Positions 1,585-21,656 of a DNA stretch of 64,000 bases are shown here, one piece after another (the first letter of the stretch is position 1; every line of letters starts with the position of its first letter). The position numbers and the translations under genes are program-made. The stretch spans positions 62,001 to 126,000 of the forward strand of contig FMBT01000393.1 of NCBI GenBank assembly GCA_900095095.1. Direction: 5' to 3'. The DNA comes from Fragilariopsis cylindrus CCMP1102. Lineage: Eukaryota; Bacillariophyta; Bacillariophyceae; Bacillariales; Bacillariaceae. The notes under the pieces were generated by a model that worked only from the letters and a program-made list of their open reading frames with translations, was not told the DNA's origin and ran no database searches.

Positions 1585-3011
1585 GAAGAGGAACGACTCG
1601 ACTCACTCACTCACTCACTCACAAAAACAAACAAACAAACAAATTCTAACTCTATTGAAGCAGGGAGAATAGAATGGGCTCGTCCATCTGCTGCAATGGG
1701 GAGAGTGACGCTTGAAATGGTGGGTTTTTTTTACTTGGTGTATAATAATACAATGTATAGATAATATATGATGTCCGTTGCGATCGGATGAATAGAGATT
1801 ACAATGTTGTTGTGGTGAATTGAGTTTCATGTAATCGTGGTGGTAAAATTTAAAATTAATTATTTGTAACTAACCGTGAGCTAAAAACATACATTTACTA
1901 GTACCTTAAATAAATAATAGGGATATAATAGCATCAACAATGATGCATGGACATGGTGTTATGTATAATCATAGTCATATCCTTACTAACAGATCATAAT
2001 TTCAATACCAACTTGTTAACCGTTTATTCTTAATGTGATGATAAGAGGTATAGGTACCTGCGTGTGCAGTACGTGCAGTCTATTGTAATTTCCACTGAAA
2101 GAAATTATTGTGAGTAGCTTTTGAAGCTTTGTGCCACAAAACACAGTTTCTTGTGTAACTATTACGGGGTAGTCGATTGGTGTGCTTCATCATATGGAAG
2201 GAAAGACTAACAATCACAAATCGATACATTGTAGATCTCACATTAAGTAATGTGCATATCTACTTGCTAGTTAGTTCTTTACTGAGAGGTAGTTATTTTC
2301 TTCTTCCTTATTTTATTTATAATTACATAGTCTCTGCCTGTGATGTGTGTTGAAATTCAACTATGTATTCATCTTCACATTATCAGAAGCTTTCCCAACG
2401 AAAGACAGGTGTAGATGTTGCTAAATCATACAACTTTCCTCCTTCCTCTTGTCCCCTACGATATTTAATTTAGTAGTGCAGTGCTACATGCCATTGCATT
2501 ACTCTTAGTTGTTTTGATCATCAGATTATAGGTAAAAGAACTGATAATTTGGTCTATTATTATTCTTTCCATCATGATAATGTTGTAGAAATATCTTGTT
2601 GCCAGATGTACAAGCACAAATAGGTAGGACTAGTTTTACTGTGTGTGATTGAAAATAGTAGGATCCTGCAGTGCCACAGTTCATTCAATCAACTTGCCAA
2701 CCTCATTGTAAGAACATGATGGTCTGTGGACTTAATTCTTCTTGTAAATTAGACACATCTTTCTTGGCAGCTTGTTCTATAGGGTCAGGACAATCGTAGC
2801 TACTGTGGACAACATGCTTGATCCATCCATTTAAGGCTGGCAATGTGATAATTATAGAACACAAGGACTTCTTTGACTTGACCGAGTCCCACAAAGATAA
2901 GTCTGCACAGGGTGAGTTTCCAAACGCTCATTTATTCGTGTTAATTGCGCACACCTCAATTTGTGGCCGTAAGACTCAACAAAGATGCCATACTGTAGTT
3001 AATAGCTAACA

Positions 3012-3095: not shown

Positions 3096-4098
3096 TTCAA
3101 AACAACACATACACCAAAAGCTGTCATTTCCTTTAAGTATTCGACTCGTTGTGCTCATAGAAAAAGGGCTCATTTAATTGAAATGCCTTGTTCTAAAATT
3201 ATCGCATACCCTGTCTTATTTGTTTAGGATCTCTATCAATTGATATTCTATTGGTGTGGCATTCAGAAATATGAACTATAAGCAAAAAATGCAAATAAAG
3301 TGCTACACGCACCATCCAATACTGTGCATTTTGTCCTAGTAGTGAGGTAGTAATTGTGCTAGTAGCCACTGATGCAGCAGTTTTCTCTTCTTCCTTACCT
3401 TTACCTCTATCCTGTTGTTGGTAATAATGACTAGGTAATGAATAATTTGTGTGACTAAAAAACTGGACAACATTTTCTATGGTTGCTGACTTTTTTTTAG
3501 ACAGCACACAAAATTGTGTGTATTCTGCTCTAGCCAACTATTTTTTGAAGAAGAAGAAAGAATAAGGTGGGAGTCCTTTGTTTCCCCCAGTGTTCCAGTG
3601 CAAGGAGGTAATATATTAGATATATATATTAGATACAGTATATATGATGGCCTAACATCAGCTGCTGCTGCTGCTGCTGCTGGAGACTTCAATAGTTGGC
3701 TGGCATAAATATTCCAATAGTCATATCATATCAGAAAAAGTACGATGAGAGGCAAGGGATTCTAAAGACAAGTAGAATAATAACGACCAATGATTCATAT
3801 TTCATTACTATACATAGGGAGACTTGTTCACATACCCATGGCATATTTTTATTACCACTAGTTAAATGAATACAACAGAGACAGATGTCATCAACAATAT
3901 CCCTCATTTTGAATCTTTCCGTGTTGTAGTGCAAATGCTCTTAAAATATACAGCCAGTTGCAATTTTTCATGATAGGTGTGGAAGAGAGTAGAATTAATG
4001 ATACTTAAACAATTTTCCAGAATAAAAGCTAAGAAAGAATATTGTAATTGATTCATTTAGTTTGTCCAAATACTGTAGCAATAGTAGCAGGAACAAAT

Positions 4099-4563
4099 CT
4101 AGTTCAGGGTGGGGATCCTTGATTTCTTTCTTTGAGAATACATGGTAGAAGATAGCACAAGCTGATGAGTGGTGTCCACCATAAAAGTCTGATTATCTAT
4201 CAATCTCATTTTTGCTAAAAAGTCTCGAGTTAAAAAACCTCTAGTTTTATAACAAAGGAATTCTGGCAAAGGTATCATCAATTGCTCACAACAAAGATAT
4301 AAAGGTTCTGTCAAAGGAGGTTTGTCACCTGCAGAAATGGAGTGTTGAATGGTATGCTGTCTAATAGTGCCTCTCAGAGGTAAGTTTTAGATGATCAACA
4401 ATATTCTTTCTGCAACAGCAACGGGAACAAACACATGCGCCGCCACCTAAAGGAATGTGTGGTGTCCAAGCAGGTTCAATAGTACAACTTGTACCAGTTA
4501 GTATAGCTTCTACAGCTGGTCTAAATGCATACAATATATATGTACTGGTAGGTACATAATTAC
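4099..4563 (-). other. Coding-like fragment of unknown identity
   Basis: On the minus strand two open stretches have protein-like composition. One, about 4366-4560, contains AVEAILTGTSCTIEPAW, a triple Gly and a Cys-rich CVCSRCCCRK motif. The other, 4099-4314, is a 71-aa ORF beginning MTEPLYLCCEQLMIPLPEF. They are in different frames and could be joined by an intron ending near 4318 or represent a decayed gene or transposable element. I do not recognise a family. Confidence is low. Confidence 0.2.
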
Positions 4564-5158
4564 AATAACAGTTTAAAAGATATCAACAACTTGCCCAATG
4601 ATAGGTTTCAACCCCCAAAAGACCATCAAACATACCCACTCAAGAGAACTATGGCACCTTATTTTCATTTTGAGAATGTAAACATCTTGTGGGTACAGTA
4701 TGTCTGGAAACCAGTTCACGAGTGTGCCCAGGAAGAAAATGCAATGACAGGCTAAACATATTTATTATACTACAGTAATATGGTATAGAACTTTAGTAAA
4801 GTATTATTCTTGAATCTTGTTGTAACAGTGTAGAAGTTCCTCAAACCAGACTATACTGCAAGAGAGAGACAATTCTTAAGCATCAGTAAGACACATACTT
4901 ATCATAAAATGCCAATAGGTGCTGGGACATGTCTAGTCTTGTGCAGACACCAAAGAGAGTAATAAGAATATACATTTATTTATTTTTCTTCTAGAATACT
5001 ATATTTTTTATATTATTATTTTATTTAAGCATTAGTTCGCCTCATAAAAATTAAAGAACCATCGCGTTGATAGTCATTTCGTCAAGATTGGGCACATTAA
5101 TGTTGATCGTGGTGTAATACTAGTAAAAAAGCACCAAGAAAATTGAGCTCGTACTTCA

Positions 5159-5298
5159 CCGGAACACACGCACGACTAATGAGTTCGTAAAAACGTGTGA
5201 GTTCACTTTCTCAGATAATCGTGAAATTTTAACCGGAACACGACTAATGAGTTAGTGAAAAACGTCCGAGTCACTTTAGTGATAATCGTGAAATTTTA
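5159..5298. repeat. Two-copy tandem repeat, about 70 bp
   Basis: Units at 5159-5231 and 5233-5298 share the start CCGGAACAC, a middle CGACTAATGAGTT and the end GATAATCGTGAAATTTTA, with small indels and substitutions between them. The pair lies 400 bp upstream of the helicase-associated-domain gene. It might be a duplicated regulatory block or simply a local duplication. Confidence 0.7.
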
Positions 5299-5306
5299 AA
5301 TTTCAC
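5288..5306. repeat. 19-nt perfect inverted repeat
   Basis: GTGAAATTT / AAATTTCAC with a single central T. It overlaps the end of the second tandem-repeat unit. It could be a dimeric protein-binding site; there is no direct evidence of function. Confidence 0.5.
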
Positions 5307-5348
5307 AACCACAGTGATGGTCATACTCGGAAAGAAAGCTCTGTACAG

Positions 5349-5375
5349 TAATCCTCGCATAAAATGCGAGGATTA
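5349..5375. repeat. 12-bp perfect hairpin
   Basis: TAATCCTCGCAT pairs perfectly with ATGCGAGGATTA across a 3-nt AAA loop. The arms are GC-rich relative to the surroundings. It sits about 320 bp upstream of the ATG at 5698. A regulatory or cruciform-forming site is possible, as is the relic of a small inverted-repeat element. Confidence 0.5.
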
Positions 5376-5697
5376 TTTATCGGTTTAACTAATACATAGG
5401 CCTATAAAATGGAGGAATTTATGAAATGACTGTATGAGAATATTATATATGTCGAGGAGAATTTCAGAACTTTTATGTGTAATTAAGTGACTACGATCAC
5501 ACAATTTCTCATTCCCCTGAAGCACATTAAAATTCGCTTTCTCTTCACTAAATCGTTTCACAACTTTCCTGTATCACACGTACTCGAACCGCTATTACAA
5601 AACCACGACCACAATCAACCAACCCAACAATCCATTCGTTACTCATCATCTTTCGCCTTTGCAACATCCTAGCACATCACCGAAACAACACACAACA

Positions 5698-7631
5698 ATG
5701 GAACTCAAAAGATATACCGAATTCAAAAGAAAAATTGCCGTACTGACGACAGCGTCAGTGGCAGGGTCAACCGACACCGACATCAGCACTCACACAGCCA
5801 CATCGACGGCAACCGACAGGAACTGTAATAAGGAAGGAAGGCGAAACGGAAACATAATGAACGACCCAAACAACAACGATAATACTAAAACAATAGTCAC
5901 ACTAGTAATAGCTTTCCCAGCGTCGATCATAAGCATAAGCGAACGAAATTAGAATCGTCACGAACACTATCACCATCATCGAACAACAGCAACAGCAACA
6001 GCAACAACAGTAGTATCCCTTTCGCTACCAGCAACTGGTGGAAGAACGGAAATGGTCCAGCTCGTGTCACTACTCCAACTCTAGCTCCAGAAAATGCAAC
6101 AACAGCCCCTCCATCATCATGGTTACAACTTTTGGGAGAAGTTGCAGCGTTGGGAGAGAATAAGCAAAATAGTACACTTCAACAACAACAACAACAACAT
6201 AATCAAGCAGTAGATGATCCATTACTTTCTGCTCTCGTGTTTCCTACTAATAGTACCGGCGGCATTGGCATCAACAACAATGAATATCATCAGCAACAAC
6301 AACAGATGTCAAGTGCACCATCGGCTATCGGACCGTCTACCTTTTCTTCAGCGTCATCGCAGCAGCAGCAGCAGGAACCGAACTATCCATTTTCATTTCC
6401 ACCTATAGCTAATATGCGACCATTATCATACAACTACAATACGAATGCGCAACATCATTCTTATTTACAGCAACAACAACAACAACAACGTCATCAACAG
6501 CAGCAGCAACAGCAACAGCAACATTATCATCAGCTACAGCAGCAGCAGCAGCAGCAACGTCATGCTGCTACCGCCTTTCAATCATTTCCGGGTTTTGCCG
6601 CTGCGGGTGGTGGTAGTGATCAGCAAAGACAAAGACAACAGATACAGCAACCATTACCAGTCCGTGTTGAAACTAATATCATTGACACATTACGAGCTGA
6701 AGGAGGAGGAGGAGGAGATATTAATCTTAATATTGCTGATATGACTGATGTAGGAGGGCCAGCTTCACTTGATGTTGAACGTGAATTGGAAGAATCGTAT
6801 CAACAAGATGCATCTTTCGCAGATGATTTGAAACAAAACGCACAACAACAACCAAATGATACGATTATTGATGTTGATGATGTTGATCTTGATTTTTCTG
6901 ATATCGAACCGGTCCCTGCTATGGCTACTAGTGGTAGCATTACTCTTATGACTCCAAGGAGTGATTCACCAAAGGAAGCAGGAGAAGGCTTTGATATTAA
7001 TGATGATGATACTGGCAACGATGGGATTAACACGATCCGTCTTCCTAACACTCCTATTACACCCAATTCCAACAACAACAATACATTATCGTCAACAGAA
7101 ATTGATTATTTAAAGGAGGTGAAGTTTCGTGCATATCAAGCAGAAAATTGGACAGAAAAATTTGAAGAATTGTTACAATTCCGTGATGATAATGGACATT
7201 GTTTAGTACCGAATTGTCATCCAGAAAATCCTGCATTAGCACAATGGACTAAACGACAACGGTATCAGTATAAATTAAAAATAGATGGTAAACGATCTAC
7301 TATAACTGATGAACGTGTACGCGCATTGGATGAGGTTGGATTTGTTTGGGATTCACATAAAGCTGTTTGGTCTGAACGACTTGAGGAATTAAAATGTTTT
7401 CAAAAAGAATTTGGTCATTGTAACGTACCCAGTCGGTATCAAACGAATCACCAATTAGCAATTTGGGTGAAACGACAACGTCGACAATGGAAGAATAGAA
7501 TAGATTTACAACCAAATTGTATGACAGATGAAAGACAGGATGCTTTAGAGGAGCTTGGATTTCTTTGGGACATGAAAAGGAAGAAGATGAAAAAGACAAC
7601 TAGTAAGAAGAGGAAGATGATAGTAGTATAG
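5698..7631 (+). CDS. PolyQ nuclear protein with two helicase-associated (HA) domains
   Basis: The ATG at 5698 (MELKRYTEF) opens the frame. A one-base deficit in the A-run at 5887-5890 moves the rest into the next frame; adding one A gives one product of about 644 residues. After the break come a basic NLS-like KHKRTK, then Gln-rich tracts at about 6180-6570 encoded by CAA/CAG repeats, then an acidic region. The C-terminus has two tandem HA repeats, about 7160-7350 and 7365-7580, each with the pattern W...F.EL..F....GHC.VP....N..LA.W.KRQR. They end GFVWD and GFLWD. The tail is Lys-rich. HA-domain proteins of this layout are abundant in diatoms and are thought to bind nucleic acid; no helicase motor is present. 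The role in transcription is inference. Confidence 0.75.
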
Positions 7632-9397
7632 ATCGATAGAACACATTATCTGAAAAGTCAAAATTCATAATATCGACTTATAAAATAAACATATATATTA
7701 TATACATTTTATGTACATTTTTCAGCTCGCAACTATGCAGATGAACTACTACAAAGGAAATTAGAAGTCTACCAACTAACACTTTCAAGGAGGATGGCAG
7801 AAGTCACAATCTATGCCATGTAAGACCATCACATACTAAACAAATAAGCAAGAGAGATGAACTTGGAAACTGTTATACATTTCATCAATTGTTGGAACTT
7901 AGTAGTACAAGTTGACCAGAAAAAGCTGTTGTTGAAGAATTGCAATAGAGAAGGCCTGTATATTGTCGCTCAAATGAAATTGCACGAGCACGTATATAAT
8001 TAGGCAATACAACAGTACTAGTAAGATAATGTTATTTAATTCCATCTCCACCTCTTAGCAGAATATGTATATATATATACATAAAATATACGTATAAGAC
8101 TGGATAAACCATCTGGGCGATAAGTCTTTGGCTGAAACTCTACATCTTACTATGTGGTGAGAATTTTGGTAATACCTTGGTCTTCTAGCTAGTTTTTCGT
8201 CACTGGTTTAATATAATATCACTACTACTATAATATCAAACTAGAGCTGCATTTCTTTTATGACCCGAACCAAGACCATTGTACCGGTAATTATTACAAT
8301 CTTTTAGTACCTGTACAAACGATTAAAATAAACGTAAAATAGCGCGAGCGTACAATTAAGCGTGTCGACAAACGAAATAAAAAAAACTGTTAAACAAGTA
8401 ATAAAAAACTGAGAACAAGTTAATTATTAAACTTTTTTCAACGTTAATTTTTTATCTAATTTCAGTCGTAATTTTTTACGAAATAGATTTAGTCGTTTAT
8501 GCACGGCTACAAAGCTAACGCATAACAAACGTGTGGTCGCGAAAACTTTTGTCGGCGGTATTTTATAAAGCTAAGCGTTCTGTGCGACCATAAAAGAGCC
8601 GAAAAAGTAATCTATTGAAAGCGCAACGCGCGAGATCCGGCGGCAGGATCCGTGGCCCAAATAGTAAAACTCGCACATCTGGAAATTTGAATACTTCATT
8701 TTCCTAGTAATTACTAGTAAATCTATGGAAGTTCTAAACAATAATAAATCCATCAAAATTCAATATCAGCAATAAGTACATAACAAGACCTACTGAGCCT
8801 ATTTTGGTACAAGGAATCTGAATAAGGCCCCTTTCAGGAGTTGGAAGTCTTTGGCGTCGCGTGTCTCCGGAACGATTTCGAAAAACGACTCGTTGCTTTG
8901 GAGGCCATCTTAGCTCCTATAAATTAAAGTACTCCCCAGTTGGTGACTGCTTCGGGAAAGTGGTCACTGCCAACGAAATCCACAATTTTCGATGGTATTT
9001 AAATCAAAAACAGCATCAGCTCCACTCATTTGGAGTCGCGGATCTCCGGAACATACTTTCTGCGAATGTAGTTTATGATTACCATTCAACAAAATTGACT
9101 TCCTAGAGTATAAGAAAATTATACTATAGTATATTTTTCATAAGTGCTGTGATATATGAAATGAAAAGTATGAGACTATTTATTTTGTACCCTTCTACGT
9201 ATGTTTTTATTCCTACACATCCTATCCATGGTTTTTCAGGAAAAGGATAATAGCTTGGAATATTCGAACTCGAAATTAATGGGTTACTTCGTTCTTGTCA
9301 AGAATCGCCTTGAACCCCCCAAATTTTTCCTCGCCATCGTCGCCCAACAATGGTTTGTCCCATGCTTGATCGACGATCCAACTTCCGAGGTAGGCCA
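7632..9397. other. Intergenic region without recognised gene
   Basis: AT-rich, with many short ORFs but no domain. At about 8838-8875 and 9020-9053 two copies of an imperfect sequence share GTCGCG...TCTCCGGAAC, suggesting a small degenerate direct repeat. An 81-aa ORF at 8861-9106 spans the copies and has no recognisable family; I do not call it a gene. Confidence 0.5.
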
Positions 9398-11295
9398 TCA
9401 TATTTGCTTGTCGAACCGTAACCCCACCAACACGGAATCCTCTGGCAATAATCCCCTTTCTTCAGATTCGAGATAAGGTATATTTGGTAGAGTACTCAGC
9501 TCCTTGTTTGTGAAGTGTCCGTTTAGAACATTCTCTTCGACGATGTTTTCAATGCCCTTTGGGGGAGGGACCGCATCTCGTTGGATTTTACTTGAGAACT
9601 TACCAGGAAGATTCATAAGGATGAATGTCAAATCTACTTTGTCTCCTGCAGTTGTACCCCAAAATGGGTTATCCAAAACTGTTATGTTCTCAATTGTAGT
9701 GACGAGAGGATTTTCTGCAAGGAAGAGAGAATCAAGATTGCTTCGAAGCTTTTCCATATGTGACACACCATCATCGAATATTTTATTCATGAGATTTGAA
9801 TTTATACCAGCATCTCCCGGTGAGATTCCAAAATAAGTAGAAAAGCACATATAAAACATCCCCATGTGACCCATCCACGTATAAACATCTAGATTTTCAC
9901 TTTCCTTGTAAACCTCAGCATACGTATTACCCTGGCCTGTAAGTTGAAATTAATATGCACGATCTTACGAACTCTTTTCTGAACAAGAGTTGGGATTCCA
10001 TCAGGCACATTTATTCCGCCATCTGCAAGCATTAATTGTCTCATATCTCCTTTACCGGTCACATCAACCTCACGAAATTGCCATAATTCAGTCATATCCC
10101 GGAAAACGGAGAACATATTCGTTGAGACACCCAGGAGCATCTCTAAACTGAAACGTTTTTTCTTCGATCCCCATTCCGATGGCTTGGTCGGATGGACGGG
10201 AAAATCCAAAGGCTCGGCGGCCATCTTTGTGTTTGGAGGTGCAATCGTATCAAAACTCATGCTTCTATCATAATGCGAAACAATTTCATATGGAGTAGCA
10301 CTAAATAGTACGGAAGTAAGATTGTCATTCTTGGATAGCGACGCTTCAACATCCTCGATAGAAAAGGGAAGCCGGCTTCAAGTCCGAGAGGACTCTAGGA
10401 TCTTTCCCACTATCGATTTTAAAAAGATTCAGTGGGAATATCTCCTTTGGTCCTACATAACTGAACGTAATAATAGGTGTTGCTTTCACATCTTCCCTAA
10501 CGCCAACAAAGTCCTTGTTTTCGCTGAGCTCGGTAGGTCCGAAGAATTGATTCCTTTTGATACCAATAGGTCTGATAAATGTGTAATACACGCGATATTA
10601 TAGATTGACTTTGGTTTTGTTTTCAAGATTTTCATGGCAAGAACCACCGGAATGACTCGTAACGCAAGCCTTCTTGACATCAAATCAAACAATGAACCTT
10701 TTTTGGTGTGGCGTAATTTCTTAGCGGTGATGTCTTGAGGTGCAGTTACTTCTCCTTCGGCGTCTAAGATTTCTGTGCCGTCCATTGTTTGGGCAAACGC
10801 ATATAGAACGATGGGTATATTCCCTCTATAAAATGTATTCGATTCGATGCGAGTATTGAAGTTTATGTCAGGGACAAAATTGTGAATTCGAATTCAAATA
10901 CAATACAATACAATACAATACAATACCAATTTGATCGCTGTCCTATATACTAGTATGACTTACCCGCTAAGACCTGCCAGGTAATCAAATGCTTCCATTG
11001 CTGGTCGCATCTTACCATCGATCTCGACCTTCTGCTGTTGGATTCCGCGCATTATTGCTGCTCCGTGAAGACCTGCAACTACACCACCACCAGAGATTGA
11101 CATTCCGACGGAATTTTGAATCTGATCTTCTTTTTCAGCTGACGTTGGAGTAGAGGCAAGAAGCACCAGGCCAACGACCGCATAGCAGCAGTGAACTAAA
11201 CATCGTTGAATCTTCATTTTTGAAAGTATAGAAAGAGCAGCAATGAGTGGTTGTGCCTGTAACTTGTTTGTTGGTTTTGTGCCGTAAGATCGCAT
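9398..11295 (-). CDS. Secreted patatin/cPLA2-like lipase, with frame breaks
   Basis: Exon 1 (10964-11295) offers ATGs at 11295 and 11217. The second gives a clean signal peptide, MKIQRCLVHCCYAVVGLVLL... ending STPTSA. Next comes SISGGGVVAGLHGAA (oxyanion-hole glycines) and GLSGG, the nucleophile-elbow Ser, whose last Gly codon is split by a 138-bp intron (10826-10963, GTAAGT...TATAG). Downstream are a TPYEI motif and LADGGINVPDGIP, which fits the catalytic Asp of the patatin/cytosolic PLA2 fold. The frame changes three times: at TT 10598-10599, the A-run 10362-10365 and CCC 9928-9930. One extra base in each run restores it. Expected activity is phospholipid or lysophospholipid hydrolysis in the secretory pathway. 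The C-terminal 170 residues are unassigned. It is either a working gene with assembly indels or a decaying one; I favour the first. Confidence 0.6.
10899..10926 (-). repeat. (TATTG)n pentanucleotide repeat in lipase intron
   Basis: Five to six CAATA units on the + strand lie inside the intron of the lipase gene, reading TATTG in the sense of transcription. The same pentanucleotide in the same sense orientation occurs in the SGNH esterase intron at about 30126-30157. Confidence 0.8.
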
Positions 11296-12096
11296 TTGTG
11301 TCTATCTTCCTTCCTTCGTTGTTTTTGAATACGACATGTTGATATAGGAGGCAGGGAGCGAAAGCTACAAATTGGAAATCAACGTGTGTCATTTTTCACA
11401 TCTTCTTTTTCAAATTTTTCAAAGCTTCTCTTTAGATCTGAATTTTCAAATCTTCTCTTTCAGATCTTCTTCTCTTTCAGATCACTGTATCATCATTTTT
11501 CGACGACACACCAACGTTGGCGTCAAAGAAAATTCCTTAACGCCAACGGTGGATTCATTGAAAAAAATTATATGCATTTTTCGACGACACACCACCGTTG
11601 GCTTCAAAGAAAATTCTTTGACGCCACTACTTTTACGTCGCCTAAAACCACTAAGAACAAAATTCACAATCGACGCGCTTACCGTAAGACAAGCTTAGTT
11701 ATAACTCCGAAATCTTTTTTATGTTTCTGATTGGCTCAAGAGCTCCGATTTTGACAACAGCTTATTACCATATTTTAGGATCACTTCAAAATGTAATCAA
11801 CTTTGTTAGCATCAACAATTCATTGGTGTATATAATATCAATCAGTGTGTTTATAACAATTGAAATAGGAACAGCACACTACAAAATAAGCAGAAACACA
11901 GAATAAATGTCATCAAGAATGATAAGAAATAATGTCAAGAATGAAATTCAAATTGTAACAAAGAACAAAGCTTCTTCTTTCTACTTATTGCACCAAAACC
12001 AAGATTGAATGCAATTTCATCCAAAGACAAACTTCCAACACCTTCGCTGCCGTATTGCTAACAACAATAACAGCAACACTGTTGGTTGAAACGAAA
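11296..12096. other. Intergenic region with direct repeats
   Basis: Between the divergent lipase and PhnD-like genes. It starts with a TCTTCTTTCAGATC-rich stretch at about 11400-11490, contains the 53-bp repeat pair at 11494-11627, and otherwise shows nothing recognisable. It presumably holds the two promoters. Confidence 0.5.
11494..11627. repeat. 53-bp direct repeat pair
   Basis: Copies at 11494-11546 and 11575-11627, separated by 28 bp, both begin CATTTTTCGACGACACACCA and end in AACGCCA/GACGCCA. They differ at only a few positions. Within each copy, GTTGGCGTCAA and TTAACGCCAAC form an imperfect inverted repeat. They may be remnants of a small element or duplicated regulatory sites. Confidence 0.75.
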
Positions 12097-12648
12097 ATGC
12101 TACGTATTCTGTGTTTCTGAAGGAAACAATAGTATCGGTATGTCTCTTCTTTGTTGCCGGAAACTCTTTTTGTGTCAATGGTCACCAACTCATTTTCACT
12201 GCCATTCCAGAACAATCATACGAAGTACTCAAAGCAAGAAGTTATGCTGTAATGGCATACCTTGAGGATTACATTCAGACCGCATGTGATTCTGATGTTA
12301 CTGTTACGTATAGTCCGGTTTCTAATTATCAAGATGCGGTAGATGCCCTTCTAACAGGGAATACAAATTTTGTGGGGTATGGAGGATTGACAGGAGTGGA
12401 GGCGGGGCTAAAATTGCCTCCATCCATATACCTTGCTCAGCGATTGGAGGACACCAGATTCACTAGCGTTTTTATTCATGAACCTGATCTTGACGTACCG
12501 GTGGGAATTGAAAGTGCAAACAATCATAGATCATTAGCGTTTGGGTCTAATTTGTCCACCAACGGCCATTTGATGCCTACATACTATGAACAGGGTAGAT
12601 CCAAAATGCAAAATGTACAAAAAAAAGCGAAAAGAAGGGAAGATTTAA
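12097..12648 (+). pseudogene. PhnD-like substrate-binding protein gene, 5' part, split by transposon
   Basis: Opening from an ATG at 12097 with a one-base deficit in the T-run 12113-12115, the frame encodes a signal peptide-like start followed by HQLIFTAIPEQSYEVLKAR, DAVDALLTGNTNFVGYGGL and LAFGSNLSTNGHLMPTYY. This matches the phosphate/phosphonate ABC-type periplasmic binding protein family (PhnD/PtxB type), in which the FGSPxSTSGHLMP segment contacts ligand. The homology stops about 60 bp before the TTAA at 12645-12648, where a piggyBac element begins. Further PhnD-like sequence resumes beyond the element at 16176. The gene is therefore interrupted and presumably inactive at this allele. 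Presence of the family in a diatom suggests phosphonate or phosphate uptake, but this is inference. Confidence 0.65.
12645..12648. repeat. TTAA target-site duplication, left
   Basis: TTAA directly abuts the left inverted repeat. The matching copy is at 16176-16179. TTAA is the specific piggyBac target. Confidence 0.9.
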
Positions 12649-12663
12649 CAGGATTCAGGTTAT
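12649..12663 (+). repeat. piggyBac left terminal inverted repeat
   Basis: CAGGATTCAGGTTAT, the exact reverse complement of 16161-16175. Unlike the classic insect piggyBac ends, it starts CAGG rather than CCC. Confidence 0.93.
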
Positions 12664-12681
12664 GGCTCTCAGCTGAGAGCC
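12664..12681. repeat. Subterminal 18-bp perfect palindrome
   Basis: GGCTCTCAG/CTGAGAGCC directly follows the left TIR. There is no equivalent next to the right TIR, so the ends are asymmetric. A dimeric transposase- or host-factor-binding site is a reasonable inference. The following 60 bp (about 12685-12745) also form an imperfect GGGGT.../...ACCCC inverted repeat. Confidence 0.8.
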
Positions 12682-13244
12682 ACTTTTTGGGGTCTATTTT
12701 TTGTAGGGGCATATTTCCCTCAAAAAATGGACTTATACCCCCCTATTGAGACACAGTACATCTCCGTTCAAAGGCACGTGCTTTCTTATTAAGTTGAAAT
12801 AACTCCCGGTCACTATGTATGGGAGGTTACTACTCCGGCAGCTGCAGTCCTAAATAAAATTCGGAAGAGCATGTGTTCAAATATAGAGAGTCGAAAAACG
12901 TGCCGCGCAAACCTCTTTTTGGTTCAATATTATTATGTGACTCACACCCAAGATTCAAAATTTGAAAAATGAACCAAGTTTTAAACAAAAGAAGGAGTCA
13001 ACGCATCAAAAATATGAGTCAAATGGTCAGTCTTGTAAACTTTTGGGAAAATAACTAGTAAAATTTACTAACAAATCCTCTTTTTCAACTAAATATTTCA
13101 AATTTTCATACTAACTAACTACTAGTAAAAATATTTTAGTCACTAGCTGTTTTCGTAACTTTACCACGCATTTTCCATGGAATCAAAATATTACAAATCC
13201 ACACCCAAAACAACCAACGTTTTTAACACTACAATGGCAATAAA

Positions 13245-15704
13245 ATGCCTCCTAAAAGACGCCCAATCAGTGTCGAATGGGCCAAATCATTAGTAGGACT
13301 GTCTATGAAGGTCCCTGATTACTGGTGGGATGGTTGCAAAGGCTATAGGCTACATGATGGTGTTATTGATTCGTATTGTGAAATCAGTCAACGCTGGAAT
13401 TTATTATTAGATACTAAAGAAGATGATGCTCTCTACCTCATGGCTTATGATGCTATCTATAAGTATGCAGACTTCAATTCCTCCACCTACAATGAATTCC
13501 AACTAACCCAACACCCTATTCGAGATGGTGATGATGAAATACAAACAGAAACAAAAAAATATTTTAGAACAGAAGCTGATGAATGGGATGAGGTTGTTAT
13601 TGAAGATGGTGGTACTGATACTGGTGGTCGTCCGATTGAACCACTTGCATGGGAAGGAGGTGAAGAGTTCACTGTTAAGATAACTGATGAAGAGGTGGAG
13701 ATGTTAAGGGACATTGATGGAGAGATCAGGTTTGAGAAGGTCTTCCAATGGTGCCTTCCCAGATTTGGAGATGACGATGATCAAACTCTATTTGAATTTC
13801 AAGCTGCTAGGATGAGAAATTATATGAGGAAGCGAGTTCTTGAAAGTGGCTTCAAGCCAAGGTATTACAAAGGCGACAAAGTGATAACTGGAGACCATGT
13901 GGCTCGTTTCTATGGTGCTTGTCTATGCAGAATGATCCATGGAGGAAGATCCATTGAACAAATATTTTCAACAAGAGAAATAATGGACGCAGTTCCATCG
14001 ATTAGAGAATCAATGACCAAAGCTTGTCTAGAGGATCTTACTACATGCTTGCACTACAGTGACGATTGGGATCCAGAGTGTGGTAGCGATTGGGACGATA
14101 TATATGATGATCCAAAAGTACATGCATCACCAGGCACTGCAAAGCATCGATTGAAACATGGTCTATTGGAAGATGGATATAATAAGGTATGTACTGTATA
14201 TGTTGTTGTTGTTGTTGTTTCGAATCGATTACTAACCTACCTTCCTTCTTCTTCTTCTTCTTCTTTCAAGAGGTGGCAAGCTATTGTCAACTTTGGCAAG
14301 TGGATCACCACTGATGAGAGTCGAGTTGGGGGCTGGTATCATAGTTGCATGACAATTGGACCTGAACCAAAACCAATTCGAACTGGAGCTACTATTCATA
14401 CTGTCTGTATCACTACAGGTCCTCTCAGTACATTCAAGTTGTTTGCTAGAGTCTATGGTGGTCAATTCGATGAAGATATTCCAGAGATCAATGATTATGG
14501 AAAATACAAGATGATCTCTCTCTACGACGTTATGCTATCTCCATTCAAGCATAAGGGTCATTGTGTTGTCATGGATTCTGCTTACATGAGTGATGCCATG
14601 TGTCAAGTTGGAAGAGAAGAATGGAAAATCAACATGGTTGGTACTTGTCAAACCAATCGAACTGGTGCTGGTAGTCTTGGTAAGGCAACTGTGGCTGCAA
14701 GAGGGATCAAGGTTGGTACACATCAATCAGTTATGTATCAACACAAGGACAAGCCCATTACCTATGCTATTTGGGCTGATAACAACTATGTCAAGACGCT
14801 TTCTAACTTTCATGGTCCTAATCTTCTAAGAGGAGGAATTCAGAGAAAGCTGAGGGATCCAGTAACATTCAGAAGGAACAAGGACTTCACTGATGTCGAT
14901 TGCCCTGAGCAACAGTGGGTGTACTGTCAAACGTATCATTTGATTGATAAAGGGAATGGTGCTGAAGCCAAGTATGATCTCTCTACTGAATCGCATCTGC
15001 ATGGATGGTCCCCCAAGTTAGCAGCTAGATTTTTCAATATGAATCTTAACAATGCCTACAACATCTACAAGTCCCTCTACAACAAGTATCATCCTGACAG
15101 GACCCCAATGCTAATGAGATCATGTATCAACGATTTGACTCATTCACTACTGCAGCAAGGATCCGAAATTCGAACAAGAGGCTTTGGAGATGCACCAAGT
15201 GCTACAAAGGATATTACTACTACCTCATCTTCTTTGGATGGACGAAAACTTCGATCTGATGCAGTTAGACAACGTTTTACCTCCCCTACAGTACACACTG
15301 GAACTCCTCAAACACCAGTGTCTGTTCTTGGTGCTAGAGCTCTTCGGTATCGTAAAGCTGCTTCTAAACTACAAAAGGAACGCCAGCCTGGAAGGAATCA
15401 TATATCGGTTCCAGTGGTGGTAAAGGGAAATAATGCTTCATCTTATTGCAAGTACCACAAGTGTCCTGGTAAGAATACTGGAGCAAAGAGAAAACGAGCC
15501 TACAAGTCAAAGTATGCATGTGAAGAGTGTGGTTTGGAGAAGGGAATCGATTTTTTCCTTTGTAATTCAACCAAGGATGTGGATGGAAAGTTGGTAGTAG
15601 TTGATTGTCACACAGCATATCATGTGGAAAAGAAATTATATGAGACAACAGCAACAGGTAGTGTTAGTGTTAGTACTGTTGCTTCTGAGCTAACAATTGA
15701 ATAG
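13245..15704 (+). CDS. piggyBac transposase (DDE_Tnp_1_7)
   Basis: The ATG at 13245 (MPPKRRPISVEW) opens an 819-aa frame that includes an apparent 84-bp in-frame intron, 14187-14270; spliced length is 791 aa. The DDE core shows the three piggyBac acidic motifs (unspliced numbering): TTDES at D357, VVMDSAYMSD at D444, and AIWADNNYVKTLSNFH at D512. The C-terminal Cys/His-rich domain, about residues 735-800, reads CKYHKCPG, then CEECGLEKG, FLCN and DCHTAYH, the zinc-binding end-recognition domain of the family. The N-terminal 200 residues are acidic and less conserved. The enzyme would excise and insert the element at TTAA by hairpin intermediates. No frame breaks are present, in contrast to many host genes in the window. 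Confidence 0.92.
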   Translation: MPPKRRPISVEWAKSLVGLSMKVPDYWWDGCKGYRLHDGVIDSYCEISQRWNLLLDTKEDDALYLMAYDAIYKYADFNSSTYNEFQLTQHPIRDGDDEIQTETKKYFRTEADEWDEVVIEDGGTDTGGRPIEPLAWEGGEEFTVKITDEEVEMLRDIDGEIRFEKVFQWCLPRFGDDDDQTLFEFQAARMRNYMRKRVLESGFKPRYYKGDKVITGDHVARFYGACLCRMIHGGRSIEQIFSTREIMDAVPSIRESMTKACLEDLTTCLHYSDDWDPECGSDWDDIYDDPKVHASPGTAKHRLKHGLLEDGYNKVCTVYVVVVVVSNRLLTYLPSSSSSSFKRWQAIVNFGKWITTDESRVGGWYHSCMTIGPEPKPIRTGATIHTVCITTGPLSTFKLFARVYGGQFDEDIPEINDYGKYKMISLYDVMLSPFKHKGHCVVMDSAYMSDAMCQVGREEWKINMVGTCQTNRTGAGSLGKATVAARGIKVGTHQSVMYQHKDKPITYAIWADNNYVKTLSNFHGPNLLRGGIQRKLRDPVTFRRNKDFTDVDCPEQQWVYCQTYHLIDKGNGAEAKYDLSTESHLHGWSPKLAARFFNMNLNNAYNIYKSLYNKYHPDRTPMLMRSCINDLTHSLLQQGSEIRTRGFGDAPSATKDITTTSSSLDGRKLRSDAVRQRFTSPTVHTGTPQTPVSVLGARALRYRKAASKLQKERQPGRNHISVPVVVKGNNASSYCKYHKCPGKNTGAKRKRAYKSKYACEECGLEKGIDFFLCNSTKDVDGKLVVVDCHTAYHVEKKLYETTATGSVSVSTVASELTIE
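14187..14270 (+). other. Probable in-frame intron in transposase
   Basis: GTATGT donor, TACTAAC branch-point consensus at 14230-14236, pyrimidine tract and TTTCAAG acceptor. The length is 84 bp, divisible by three with no stop, so retention would insert 28 residues (polyVal and polySer) into the catalytic domain just before the first Asp motif. Confidence 0.85.
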
Positions 15705-16160
15705 ATACTTAACCCGGTAATATATCACCTCTGTTTAATGGAGATCATGTACGTTATCTTCTTTTCTACTGTAGTTGAGTGAAAGACCACATACTATTAG
15801 CATGTGTGTTGATACTCGTATATTTCCCATTATCAATCTTGATTCGAACGAAAATCACTGCTATTTAGCGCGTGTTAATTTAGCGCGCTTTATGGTTTAT
15901 GTACTCAAATCTGTTGTCTAACTTCAGCGTAATAAAATCTTCCACAAAATCCATTGGATTTGGCTAGAATGATATTATTAATAACTGAGGTGTCTAGTTC
16001 AAGTCCATCTAGCGCCATCTAACAGGCTGAATAATTTTGTATTTATCTAGCAATCAACCAGTGAAAATTGGCTATATTTTCTAAGTTAAATTATTTTTTT
16101 TGGAAAAATAACACGTGAATTAACTAGTAAAAAAAATTAGAAATCGGCAAAAAAATCCTT

Positions 16161-16175
16161 ATAACCTGAATCCTG
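16161..16175 (-). repeat. piggyBac right terminal inverted repeat
   Basis: ATAACCTGAATCCTG, the exact complement of the left end, followed by TTAA at 16176-16179. Confidence 0.93.
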
Positions 16176-16330
16176 TTAACTAGATTTTAAGGGTTTGATG
16201 CGCTTTTGTGGTGTAATAATTCCAAGCAATAGCCCCATGCGCAGTTTGCGTTTACTGGTGCTTGATGACAAAAGGCTATTTTGCCATCAGGATCTTAGAT
16301 GTCATAATGATTGGAGCTATTTCGTAGCCG
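16176..16330 (+). pseudogene. PhnD-like gene, 3' remnant beyond transposon
   Basis: About 75 bp past the right TTAA the frame reads QFAFTGA, followed by Asp-rich and SGS.LDV...GAIS fragments in shifting frames. This corresponds to the FTGSHD...V..G..DVGA region of PhnD-like proteins, the part missing from the 12097-12648 fragment. Several frame changes and stops (TGATGA at about 16264) are present, more than one simple homopolymer error explains. The 3' part thus appears decayed or rearranged. The exact end is not visible. Confidence 0.45.
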
Positions 16331-17086
16331 GGAGGGAAAAAAAGGAACAATCAAAGAGTAATCACACGTACTGTAGTATACTTAATTATAGAACACAAAG
16401 GATTATCTTATTGTTGCTTTCCAAGGAATATCAAATGACTGGAAACGCTGGCAAAAATATTGTCATGATCATCCAAGCAAGCTACTATATATATATATAT
16501 ATCTATCAAATACTGCTCATTTGCTCTAGTTACTTTCTAGTAATAGGAACAAAATGTCAGTCATCTCAAGACCTAACGAAAGCAGTAAAGTGTAACTGGT
16601 ACTTTTTGACCTTTTGATTTCTTGACTTGTGTGATTTGCTGATGTTTGTGATTAATACTTACATGGATACAGCAAGTTGAAAGTGTATTACAAGGTATAC
16701 AAAAAATGTGCTGGTCATGATATTTGTCCTAGTCCGTACTATTGGTACGTATGTTCAATATGAACACGCAAGGAAACGATGTATTTTATTCGTGCTTGCC
16801 CTTGCAGTTGCCCCTGTGCATACTTCCATCGCGTTTCCATCGTGTCTCGATACTGTGTATGTTATTTTCATTCTACAGTAGTAAAATCCTACGCCACGAC
16901 TAAAAATCCAGAACAATTCTTCTTTTATCTATTTTTTGTTATGATTTTATGTAACTTACAGCAGGGGTTCTGTCAGCTTTGTGATTTGATCGTGGTTCTC
17001 ATACTTTTCTAAAACAGTAACTTGAAGTTTCTAAACAACCGGGAAAGGAATATAATAGTATAATCATCAACCATATCTATATCAAC
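16331..17086. other. Intergenic region
   Basis: AT-rich with a short (TA)n at about 16484-16503. No recognisable coding sequence. The last 100 bp probably contain the promoter of the 17087 gene. Confidence 0.5.
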
Positions 17087-18093
17087 ATGAGTATCAACGA
17101 TAATCAAGAATTGTTCGAAAAGTTAATCGATGACGACGATGTCCTCGAGGATATCGAATTACAGAAGAAAAATCACAACAAGAAATCTCCTGTGTTAATC
17201 GCAACGGCGATTGTAGTCTCAGATCCAAAAAAGGGACTAACATCTCGCCGTAAAGCTGGCCGTAAAGGTGGTAGTAGTAGTAGTTGTCCTTGTTGGTGTA
17301 AGTGTATTGGATGGACTATGCTAGTATTCACATTACTTTCTTTCCTCATTATTGGATGTACTTTCGTCTGGTTGAATGGAATTTTAAAGGAGGCTGTTGA
17401 ACAATTTACAATTGAAACACCACTCCCAAAATTCGATATCATTGAAATGTCAGACTTGGAACAAAACATTGTCAAGGATCGTGTTATGTTGTTCGTTGAT
17501 CAATTGGCAGCACCGAAGACGACTACTAACGGTGAACCACGTGCACTCATCAATGATTTGGTTTTAACTCAAGACGAAATCAATGGATTTATTGGTCATT
17601 CTGATTACTTACGTGGTAATATGATGGTATCATTTCATAAGAATCTTATTGAGGAAGAATACAGCCTACCGATGGATGTGTTGGGATATGATGGTCGTTA
17701 CTTGGTAGGAAACGACTACTTGAAACTAGGAACAGAAGAATTGAACAACAAGAATACGATCGAAATGGAAATGACAACAGCTGCAACACATGAAGATTGG
17801 TTTGATGGTCCACTATTCTTTGCAAAGATTCAATACTTGATTACAAATAGTATGACCGAAGAATTTGAAGGAATTATGTTAAAGTTATTTTTAGAAAAGG
17901 GAAGTATTTTTGGACAGGATGCTCCACAAGATTTTATTGATGAACATCAGAACTTGTTAGATTGTTTATATATCCTACTGATGACTATGATGACGATGAT
18001 ATCGATGTGGAAGCCATCCGGAACGTTATTGCGAATATTGAAAGTGTTTCAATCGAAGAGGGAAGGTTTGTAGTTAAAGCACGAAGTGATTAA
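17087..18093 (+). CDS. Single-pass membrane protein, unknown family
   Basis: From ATG 17087 the protein has an acidic N-terminus, a Lys/Arg/Ser-rich juxtamembrane stretch, a Cys cluster (CPCWCKC) and one membrane segment at about residues 77-96 (MLVFTLLSFLIIGCTFVWLN). A 200-residue region of mixed alpha/beta composition follows. The arrangement suggests a type II membrane protein with a short cytosolic tail. Near 17965 the frame leaves the conserved-looking path; adding one T to the TTT at 17965-17967 continues into YPTDDYDDDDIDVEAIRNV and ends at a stop at 18091-18093, about 335 aa. I recognise no domain. Downstream is a (TAAC)n repeat and the convergent ALMT-like gene. Confidence 0.6.
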
Positions 18094-18122
18094 TAGTAAT
18101 ATTAACGAACGAATGTCATCTT

Positions 18123-18150
18123 ACTAACTAACTAACTAACTAACTAACTC
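18123..18150. repeat. (TAAC)n microsatellite
   Basis: Seven CTAA units between the converging genes ending at 18093 and 18336, followed by two copies of a CTAACTACTTGAAGTAA motif at about 18164-18202. Confidence 0.75.
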
Positions 18151-18335
18151 ATAAACAAACAACCTAACTACTTGAAGTAATTAACTAACTACTTGAAGTA
18201 AGTAACTAATTATACAGTCATAACATTAAATGAATCCTATCTTGGAACGCATTATAAAGCATATTAAAAATTTGTCTATATTAATTATTACTTTCTGACT
18301 TAACTTAATGCATTTGATGATCTGATCTCATCTAA

Positions 18336-19892
18336 TTAATTCAGATGGTGTTGTCGTATACAACGAAGGATAAGAATTTCTACCATCCGATAGAACGTAT
18401 CTGTTTGATTTTCAATGAACTTTTGAACGTAATTTGCTTGTCCTACATCATCAAATCGTCCAATATCTTTTATCTTTGCATCTGTTGACACTGCAGGATC
18501 GTCAAGAATTGTTAATGACGGTCGACTACGTCGTTGTTCATCGGTACGTAAAATTTCTCTTCGGATTGATGGTAGATCATTGTTTAACATATCAATTGCG
18601 GTCGTATTTCTTTCCTTTTCTGATTGGGACGATAGATCAAATAATTTTTCAATGTTTTGTCCAACACGACGTAGTAGATTGACTCGAAGTACATCATCCC
18701 CAACGAGTTTCGATCGGATGATATTATCAAGCCATACTACACTCATTTGGATATGTGATATCCGATCGAGTTTCAAATTCCACGATTCTACATATTTTCG
18801 TTTCTCATCTTGTGTCTTCCTCTTAAATGTTGGATCGTAATCAAGTAACGGGAATAATTCCTTCACTTTGTGTAAACTATCTATACATTTGATATACGCG
18901 TCGTGTGCAGAATCTGGTGTGTCTGGTTTAAGAACAAGAGTTTTATACGACGGCTCATCATCCTTCCCAGCCGTTTCCAAAACTTCCCTTACAGCTGATC
19001 CCGTCATTTGGGTTAGATTTTTTACCTTAGTTTCAATAAGATGATTCGTAGAAACTGGAAAGACGATAAGAGACGTCAACGATCCTATAATACCACCCAC
19101 AATGATGTTTATTACACGGAATACACCTGTCTTCCATGCATTATCGTTATCGGAACTGTGAAAGGCAACTAGGGCCATACCACATGTTATGGTTCCCAGC
19201 ATTGCAGAATAATGACTCCGAAAACCAAAATAACAGCTGACATATACGATTGTGAATGATAATATTACTTGACTCACTCCGAGGTATATTGCATGCCACA
19301 TGAAAGATAATGATCCATCGTCATCATTGTAATTTGTTGTTGGGATAAGTAAGGATATGGCCCCAATTCCTAATCCTAACATACCTCCAAATATGGTGCC
19401 AACAAATCTTTGCCACGTTTTCTTATACACAGACCCTAGATCAGGTGAAGCTTGAAATGATGTTATTCCTGCTGTGAAATATACCCAGAATGGATCAGGA
19501 AGTCCTGCCTCGTTTGGATTTGGACTTTGACATAGTACAAAAAGAGAACCTAAGGTTAGAGCTAGAGTTACTCTTAAAGTAAATCTTAAGTTCTCACTGA
19601 TATTTTTATCGGTCCATTCCTGCATCCTCGTTCCCTTCCACGAACACGATGGCGTAAGTTTGGATGCGGTCGTGATATCGTTATCACTGTCGCCAACGCC
19701 AACGCTAACACTATCGTCGTCGTCATCGAAGGTCGTATGCGTGTTTGCTTTTTGTGTCTCCTGTGGTTTATCATCAGTGGCTATACTGGTATCCCCATAA
19801 GGTATGCTTATGTTCAAACTATTGGGACAGGAATTGGAAGAATAAGCATTTTCGTCTTTATTGGATGAAATCATTGTCGTTGATGATGCCAT
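18336..19892 (-). CDS. ALMT/FUSC-type membrane transport protein
   Basis: A 518-aa ORF from ATG 19892. A 100-residue Ser/Thr/Asp-rich N-terminus precedes about six hydrophobic segments between residues 105 and 285, including FTLRVTLALTLGSLFVLC, the FWVYFTAGITSF re-entrant-like segment, a Gly-rich GTIFGGMLGLGIGAI helix and a final VGGIIGSLTSLIVFPV. The order and the FP/WP...T motifs fit the aluminium-activated malate transporter / fusaric acid resistance (FUSC) superfamily, which forms anion channels or exporters. A 230-residue, mostly helical cytosolic C-terminal domain follows, also typical of ALMT. The membrane (plasma, vacuolar or other) cannot be told. It shares a 376-bp divergent upstream region with the FAM151 gene. 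Confidence 0.75.
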   Translation of the reverse strand: MASSTTMISSNKDENAYSSNSCPNSLNISIPYGDTSIATDDKPQETQKANTHTTFDDDDDSVSVGVGDSDNDITTASKLTPSCSWKGTRMQEWTDKNISENLRFTLRVTLALTLGSLFVLCQSPNPNEAGLPDPFWVYFTAGITSFQASPDLGSVYKKTWQRFVGTIFGGMLGLGIGAISLLIPTTNYNDDDGSLSFMWHAIYLGVSQVILSFTIVYVSCYFGFRSHYSAMLGTITCGMALVAFHSSDNDNAWKTGVFRVINIIVGGIIGSLTSLIVFPVSTNHLIETKVKNLTQMTGSAVREVLETAGKDDEPSYKTLVLKPDTPDSAHDAYIKCIDSLHKVKELFPLLDYDPTFKRKTQDEKRKYVESWNLKLDRISHIQMSVVWLDNIIRSKLVGDDVLRVNLLRRVGQNIEKLFDLSSQSEKERNTTAIDMLNNDLPSIRREILRTDEQRRSRPSLTILDDPAVSTDAKIKDIGRFDDVGQANYVQKFIENQTDTFYRMVEILILRCIRQHHLN

Positions 19893-20268
19893 TGTTGTGT
19901 CGAATACTAAGCGGAGTTTTTGTTTTATGAGCGAACAATGAAATAAAATGTGAGTGATACTGTAAAAATGAGACGACTTGTACTACGACTGACTGATACA
20001 CTGACTCGATCTCGGCGAGTAAGATTTTTTTGTGAGTTTTTCTAGTGAGTTGGCATAAAAGAAAGTCGCACGTGACAACCACACGGGTTATTTTCACCAA
20101 AGTTTTGGGGAGTGCAGAATTCACGCGCACTCCTTATTTTTCTTCAAGAATATTTAATAAAAAAACAGAATTAGCAATGATGCCTTTATTGTATCAAACG
20201 ATAAGCATACCGATATGTTGTAGTACCGCCATTGCAACTCATACATTAGAGCAATTCAAGTAATAAAC
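19893..20268. promoter_or_regulatory. Divergent intergenic region, ALMT-like / FAM151
   Basis: 376 bp between two start codons on opposite strands, so it should contain both promoters. A GTGAG-rich stretch lies at about 19990-20050. I see no canonical TATA box at a convincing distance. Confidence 0.35.
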
Positions 20269-21656
20269 ATGAAGAATGATGGCGATGTAGCAGATAATCT
20301 CGCCTTACCGGCACAAGGATTGCCGAACCCAAAAACATTGAGATGGGCTCATTCAACGTGTTCAAAAGATGATCTTGAAAAAGCTTTATTCGATGAAGAT
20401 ATAAACGCTATTGAAGCTGATATTGTAATGGGTCATCATCATAAAGTGGAGGAGAAATATAACGAGAAGACCGCGAAGGAGGACGAGGCGTCATCGTCTA
20501 CTATAACAAATAGTATCAGTACCACTACTGAACCTATTATGGCTCATCCTCCCAACTCAATTTCGGATTTATCTTTTGAAGCATTCATTCATAGATGTAT
20601 GACGAAAGAAGAACATTCCACTACAAAGGATTGTCCTCGACAACCTCGACAGCATCATTATAAGCATCTCAAATTAGATTTAAAGATGTCGAAACAATTG
20701 AACCAGCATTAAATACATTGAAAAAATCTATGATCATAGACAACGACGAAAATAATTCGAATTCGAATTCGAATTCGACGAGCACCACTACTTCTTTTGA
20801 CAAATCAATATTTCTTAATGCAGATATAATAAAAGGTCCAGGATGCAATACGAGAAATCAACAACTTGCAATTGTTGATGCCGATATTTTTATGGAAAAA
20901 TGTTTAGCATTCATAGATAGTTTGACTAATCAAGAGGAAGATCGTAAACGAATCATTATGTCATTGGGATGGAAAGTTGACTGTAGATCTTTCATGGATA
21001 TACGATCTACAGGTGAAAGAAATGAAAGATATAATTGAAAAACATGATACTATGAACCGAACTGGTGGTAAGTATACTAGTGCGCTATGCACGTGTAGTA
21101 GTAGTCTAGTACGGAATATGTACTACTTCTATATTGATTATTGGCTTGAATTCTCAAAATCAAAGATTCGTTTCTATACACTCTATGATTTACAAAACAA
21201 ATAATTATCTAAGGTGTTGTTTTAGCGGTAAATGCTCGCGTTTTAGCAAAAGATCCAAAACCATTTGACTCTATACTGAAAGAATATCCAGAAATGCAAT
21301 TATTGATTTGGACTGGTACTGGCGAGCCTCATATTTCACGCTCACAAATATCAATAATCAATAATCATTATCAATCTATCGGATGTGAAGATCAGATTGG
21401 ATTTGATTGTCAGGTGAGCTTGAGTCATTATAATATTATATTACTATATTGTGAGCAACGTGTTACTACCCCCCCCCCCTTCCCCCTATCATCTACTTAT
21501 ATTCCTCCTCCCACATACTCACGTCGTTTATCGTTGTACGAACGAAATGCCGATATTCAGGTTGCTTCGACGGAATTCTCTGGAATGTTTTACGATAGTA
21601 CAGTACGGCTCATTGGTCTATTTTGGAATGCAAAGAACTATATATTGGATGAATAA
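20269..21656 (+). CDS. FAM151/menorin family protein (PF10223-like)
   Basis: Three exons: 20269-21067, 21214-21413 and 21561-21656. Introns are 146 bp (GTAAGT...CTAAG) and 147 bp (GTGAGC...TTCAG, containing a C10 run). Family landmarks appear in order: LRWAHSTCSKDDLEKAL, INAIEADIVMGHH, EPIMAHPP.SISDLSFEAFI, LKLDLK, SIFLNADIIKGPG, IIMSLGWK, YDLQVKEMKDII, AVNARVLAKD and LLIWTGTGEP. These are the menorin/FAM151 hallmarks (W.HAVNS, IEADV..G, KLDFK, NADI..GP, SLGW), a fold related to glycerophosphodiester phosphodiesterases. Two one-base breaks interrupt it, one base short at AAA 20682-20684 and one base long at AAA 20973-20975. An (AATTCG)n tract at about 20754-20778 encodes (Asn-Ser)n. No signal peptide is evident. 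Its biochemical activity is not established. Confidence 0.75.

Follow-up and report, generated by a model that had tools for sequence, protein, structure and literature searches.

The stretch of DNA analysed here, which we call the window, is 64,000 nucleotides long and contains a complete piggyBac-type element at 12645..16179, including the TTAA at each edge (coordinates are on the forward strand unless stated otherwise). The limits of the element were set from its TTAA edges, its terminal inverted repeats (TIRs), its matches to other members of the family and an empty site elsewhere in the genome. The left TIR, CAGGATTCAGGTTAT (12649..12663), forms bp 1-15 of the tip and matches exactly the right TIR, ATAACCTGAATCCTG (16161..16175, reverse strand), which has no palindrome on its inner side. 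Together with the TTAA, 12645-12663 and 16161-16179 are 100% complementary over 19 bp. The TIRs are 15 bp long and perfect, in keeping with the short perfect TIRs of the piggyBac superfamily, and the TTAA target of that superfamily is present at both edges and lies unoccupied at the empty site. TTAA also precedes the left tip at all 28 left ends that we read, in a search that itself required a TTAA.

The transposase and its C-terminal domain

The transposase frame (13227..15704; open reading frame and Pfam) extends for 825 codons from stop to stop, with its first ATG at 13245, and matches the Pfam domain DDE_Tnp_1_7 (E 5.8e-12, 46 bits, cut-off 22.4), as does the protein of a sister copy on contig C420 (62.7 bits). 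When the window protein was compared with solved structures by phmmer, no piggyBac structure was matched; its sole match, Ran-binding protein 9 (E 0.32), was taken as chance. Asp 363, 450 and 574 (frame numbering) likely form the catalytic DDD triad. D450 (14574..14576) and D574 (14946..14948) align with a second piggyBac protein, encoded on contig C63, in a weak four-sequence alignment, in which D363 (14313..14315) was not aligned to a C63 Asp and was placed by its motif, TTDESR. The C63 protein itself matches the structures of piggyBat (E 8.8e-5) and Trichoplusia ni piggyBac (E 0.0067; 9c0f, 6x67). Its gene (C63:46658-49198, minus strand), with an open frame of 938 codons, 847 of which were read, specifies a more typical piggyBac-type transposase from outside the family of the window element.

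The frame ends in a Cys/His-rich tail, the presumed CRD (about 15447..15623, placed by its Cys/His positions and by alignment), and eight Cys/His positions are conserved in the CRDs that could be read without a frameshift. Searched by itself against Pfam, the CRD matched no domain and, because neither Pfam nor phmmer against the piggyBac structures offered a match, its fold was judged from the Cys/His spacing. The frame probably also contains an 84-nt GT...AG intron (GTATGT...CAAG, 14187..14270), to judge from length variation among copies: in the 21 copies, of 23, that allowed a measurement, the intron is 80-105 nt long, and in 10 of these 21 the length is not divisible by 3. Four copies with such a length (C599a, C91, C52 and C689) have a frame that breaks into overlapping open stretches around the intron, and in a fifth, C54, the second open stretch only was found. 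Comparison of the window frame, intron stretch included, with four open copies gave dN/dS values of 0.22-0.33.

An earlier note on this DNA had described an intact piggyBac element with exact ends, and the TTAA, the perfect TIRs and the transposase frame that it implied are all in place. Its further details held in part. The claim of all three Asp motifs is supported by alignment for the second and third Asp, but by motif only for the first; a Cys/His-rich end domain is indeed present, with its identity as a zinc-binding CRD read from the spacing; and the "uninterrupted" frame, although open for all its codons, appears to cross an intron that by chance is 84 nt long here.

The insertion site and the PhnD-like flank

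To the left of the element, the host flank carries a frame (12090..12648; open reading frame and Pfam) with the N-terminal half of a PhnD-like domain (PF12974). The match covers positions 1-125 of 242 and stops about 58 bases before the insertion, and the frame remains open as far as the TTAA. To the right, none of nine open reading frames matched PF12974 at a limit of E 10. Over roughly 4,000 to 20,400 of the window, contig C470 is collinear with it but lacks the element, crossing an unoccupied TTAA instead. At this empty site PF12974 was matched over 2-130, with a TAA inside, and the PhnD-like stretch differs from that of the window by indels of 1-2 bases. Even without the insertion, then, the PhnD-like frame is incomplete, so the earlier claim of PhnD-like sequence on both flanks fails and only the left flank carries it. 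Insertion into an intact PhnD gene was rejected on the half domain and TAA at the empty site and the PhnD-less right flank. The fuller view of the earlier note, that the element broke a working PhnD-like transport gene, would fit a match that ends so close to the insertion in a frame still open to the TTAA, but it is very doubtful given the same half domain, with its stop and indels, at the empty site and the lack of a PhnD match on the right.

Two groups of repeats lie nearby. Window 16181-16258, directly to the right of the insertion, is a short (~40-80 bp) dispersed repeat, on which 22 of the 26 matches in one search fall, in contigs other than C356 and C470; window 11389-11626 holds short repeats, some copies inverted and others direct, which are met again at many sites across the genome.

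Identity between C470 and the window is 90-99% in pieces to the left of the site, 97% from 16,780 on and 87-90% close to the site. C470 is presumably the other haplotype, in which case the insertion is present on one haplotype and absent from the other; the alternative is that C470 is a segmental duplicate. Two insertions near the site in C470, at C470:10633-17295 (about 6.7 kb) and C470:17588-23523 (about 5.9 kb), are missing from the window, and the first has about 5 overlapping bases that resemble a target duplication.

Copies of the element in the genome

Searched at E <= 0.001, the genome yielded 49 matching pieces, a count that takes in the window itself, and a left-tip pattern allowing up to 2 mismatches found 134 sites, compared with 0 for the reversed control pattern, which takes the element far beyond chance. 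Contig C788 carries a twin copy whose 3535 bases show 4 substitutions, three of which fall close together in 18 bp; the flanks of the twin match nothing around the window copy and so mark an unrelated locus. By these comparisons the window element is young, and we infer that it may be active at present. The earlier note had proposed a recent insertion and had suggested searching for other copies and for an empty TTAA site; the near-identical twin and the rest of the matching pieces, together with the unoccupied TTAA in C470, bear it out. Viral contigs yielded no relatives of the element, either by the tip pattern or by protein. The host genome gave 104 light-harvesting matches, which mark it as that of an alga; in the one such protein set against solved structures, LHCI chains of entry 9vfj were the best match, with several fucoxanthin-chlorophyll proteins lower down.

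The family also has short elements that lack the transposase. One sequence, C297:14841-15990, consists of two short elements tail to tail with a common TTAA and different palindromes; another, C343:103023-103615, has one palindromic and one plain end; and a third, C189:3316-4909, has inverted ends.

A palindrome of variable sequence follows the left TIR

Directly after the left TIR is an 18-bp palindrome, GGCTCTCAGCTGAGAGCC (12664..12681, bp 16-33), which we assigned to class "K" and propose as the site of a CRD dimer. Among copies its sequence varies while its symmetry is largely kept. We surveyed the genome with a pattern made up of the TIR and a downstream anchor that includes CTTTTTGGGG, leaving 6-34 bases free and naming no palindrome base, and found 59 sites, compared with 0 for the reversed control. 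All 59 have GGC and GCC separated by 11 or 12 bases, and 51 of the 56 palindromes that are 18 nt long pair at no fewer than seven contiguous outer positions. Nineteen of the 18-nt sequences are distinct, and in these Watson-Crick pairs account for 86 of 114 variable cells, compared with a mean of 60 after shuffling (0 of 100,000 shuffles reached the observed value). In a list of 60 left ends drawn up from the left-tip pattern, which includes GGC and shares many ends with the 59 sites, 41 have at least seven pairs; among the remaining 19 are decayed ends. The same palindrome classes, plus a few others, recur at ends that lie outside the full-length copies. No palindrome was found at the right end in eight aligned copies.

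Two palindrome classes with asymmetric centres (C44/C420 and C52/C343) occur in both orientations, flip and flop. The pairs, TCGGGGTGCCGA/TCGGCACCCCGA and TCGCGGTGGCGA/TCGCCACCGCGA, lie between the same anchors.

The palindrome class is associated with codon 760

In 25 copies the palindrome was readable together with the CRD; these copies are all from one genome and not independent of each other. Two of them (C504 and C205) were each pieced together from two fragments, on the assumption that an insert had split a single element, and C354 was left out, its palindrome being destroyed or unreadable. Of a set of 17 CRD stretches, 5 came from copies without a left end and were unusable. The position best associated with palindrome class in a column scan was codon 760 (AAG, Lys; 15504..15506), which lies ~2.8 kb from the palindrome in the motif Y-X-SKY of the CRD. 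In 23 of the 25 copies, Lys at 760 goes with the half-site TCTC, Arg with GCCC, Met with TCGG or TCGC and Pro with GCCA. The window copy belongs to the Lys class, C91 to the Arg, C52 to the Met and C278 to the Pro class. The rule is broken by C266 and C303, both of which have damaged palindromes, the CRD of C266 being frameshifted as well. After 13 copies had been seen, we wrote down 12 predictions before reading further copies, and 10 of these held, the same two copies accounting for the failures.

The scan, in which C788 was omitted as a twin, covered 1529 variable columns in 22 copies, and the best was window 15505, the middle position of codon 760. The top 40 columns all fell within element bp 2640-3010, a stretch that holds 146 of the 1529. 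When classes were permuted within core subfamilies, 0 of 2000 permutations reached the observed maximum over the columns of bp 2640-3010. Without the Pro class (15 copies), window 15505 was still the best of 1447 columns; without the Pro class, C266 and C303 (13 copies), it was perfect, at 1.42 of 1.42 bits, with the next column at 0.89.

Distances were compared across 23 aligned copies, C504 and C205 being left out. Palindrome distance showed a modest correlation with CRD distance (r 0.38, reached in 35 of 20,000 permutations) and none with core distance (r -0.02). For the TIR tip, by comparison, distance correlated strongly with the core (r 0.84, a value that 0 of 20,000 permutations reached) and little with the CRD (r 0.13; 901 of 20,000). 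On these figures, the sequence of the TIR tip goes with the core subfamily of the transposase, not with the CRD. The correlation with the palindrome was r 0.1 or less at bp 50-300 and bp 450-2600, bp 250-500 excepted. Within bp 250-500 (window about 12894-13144), divergence tracked the palindrome weakly (r 0.27 and 0.19). The start of this stretch also holds three of the four differences from the C788 twin.

On a tree of the core, palindrome class requires 9 changes, and residue 760 likewise 9. We simulated class on this tree, keeping runs with a label entropy of at least 1.5, and took the maximum over all columns: 0 of 2000 runs matched the observed value at rates 60, 100 and 200, and 5 of 2000 at rate 30, with mean numbers of changes of 9.5, 10.4 and 10.9, and of 7.7 at rate 30, set against the 9 observed. 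Independent-pair tests for each class on the same tree found 2-4 pairs on the starred branches, too few for significance (median p 0.125-0.5); in these pairs the residue never goes the opposite way and sometimes does not differ. The core tree may be blurred by recombination. One copy, C648, is a mosaic, with a core 95.7% like that of C420, a CRD 98.4% like that of C278 and the palindrome of C278. Residue 760 and the left-end palindrome thus covary as though a lock had been exchanged along with its key from one copy to another.

Two proposed recognition modules at the left end

We put at roughly 0.78 the probability of a joint explanation in which the window element is a young, autonomous cut-and-paste transposon of the piggyBac type, inserted on one haplotype and belonging to a recombining family in this algal genome, whose left end is recognised by two modules and whose copies stay mobile through matching of CRD and palindrome. 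The catalytic core of the transposase would read the TIR tip, bp 1-15, and a symmetric dimer, made of two copies of the C-terminal CRD, would bind the palindrome at bp 16-33. Each CRD class would then read its own half-site twice, so the palindrome would have to match the CRD and also be symmetric. Recombinant copies would remain mobile only when CRD and palindrome match, and the palindrome would therefore change symmetrically and in step with the CRD, tracking above all the residue at codon 760 (Lys, Arg, Met or Pro). Selection for mobility would hold the CRD-palindrome pair together while the core recombines. CRD binding, dimer symmetry and selection for matching are what we infer from the sequences of the copies, as is the co-adaptation of the two DNA-binding modules with their respective sites.

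We considered whether the palindromes could instead owe their symmetry to a mutational process (template switching, quasi-palindrome correction or cruciform flipping), with shared ancestry or chance behind the link to the CRD. Compensatory changes made by template switching are described in the part of PMC8794818 available to us, and the two palindromes that occur in both orientations are what such a process might leave. However, it does not predict a link to a codon so distant, nor do the low correlations over most of the intervening sequence (up to 0.27 in bp 250-500) favour it, and the link to codon 760 survived both the tree-based simulation and 10 of 12 advance predictions; we regard this account as unlikely. 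A mutational process may still be the route by which new palindromes arise, and template switching may supply the two-module system with new symmetric palindromes and inverted forms. Less probable still is that the palindrome and the CACTTTTT after it act as an RNA or transcription signal, a hairpin terminator or an insulator against read-through: a GC-rich stem followed by a T run is present at the 59 sites, where CTTTTTGGGG was part of the search pattern, and the stem is kept while its sequence varies, but neither the covariation with a CRD codon nor the positional match to the T. ni CRD site is explained. Our own first reading of the palindrome as a hairpin structure was abandoned once the association with the CRD emerged.

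Beyond the joint explanation, we lean, by a narrow margin over even odds, towards a natural recognition code in which at least four interchangeable CRD-palindrome pairs coexist in one genome, with specificity set largely by residue 760. Recombination would move the CRD without regard to the core, and the copies, autonomous and non-autonomous alike, would fall into mobility groups with no cross-mobilisation between them. In the literature searched, as far as its text was available, the choice of palindrome by a CRD is known from structures with one site each. The window family offers about two dozen natural copies, mosaics included, in four lock-and-key classes that point to one residue, which makes the recognition code of the CRD directly testable. 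Natural CRD classes could help in choosing orthogonal piggyBac tools, and the pattern suggests that the exchange of matched protein and DNA modules is a way in which transposon families diversify. The literature searched, with most subscription papers outside its reach, gave no description of a link between palindrome and CRD.

Comparison with known systems

K569 of T. ni piggyBac presumably has the same place relative to the second cysteine pair, five residues ahead of it, as codon 760 has in the window element. According to the available part of PMC7351741, K569 is named, with Y558 and R567, as crucial for recognition by the T. ni CRD; the first 16 bp there are contacted by the core domains, and a palindrome at bp 17-33, centred near bp 25, is the site of a CRD dimer. 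The TTAA target and a left-end palindrome near bp 25 are common to the two elements, as are, probably, the DDE/D core and the C-terminal CRD, and the position of the palindrome (bp 16-33 here, bp 17-33 in T. ni) agrees within a base (PMC7351741). Unlike T. ni piggyBac, which in the part of that source seen has a palindrome at both ends, the family described here has one at the left end only (in eight copies), directly after a 15-bp TIR and in several classes that go with the CRD; its tip is CAGG, a start that in the view of the earlier note may define a stramenopile subgroup, and its protein sequence is too remote for phmmer.

Among diatoms, Phaeodactylum tricornutum has an element with a transposase that the portion of PMC2806351 at hand calls "weakly related to piggyBac", and Thalassiosira pseudonana has a homologue of it; the likeness to the present element is one of description, that portion describing no ends or palindromes. 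PMC8086355, to the extent accessible, makes no mention of palindromes, co-evolution or swapping. Template-switch hairpins resemble the palindromes in having compensatory changes on both arms, but the mechanism set out in the pages seen of PMC8794818 is mutational and predicts no link with a distant codon. A further parallel is piggyBat of Myotis lucifugus, where an imperfect left palindrome at bp 19-30 is bound by a pair of CRDs (PMC11707139, in part). The piggyBat left end has three palindromes, compared with one here, and the sections available mention no variation of classes; in both systems the right end is without such a palindrome (PMC11707139).
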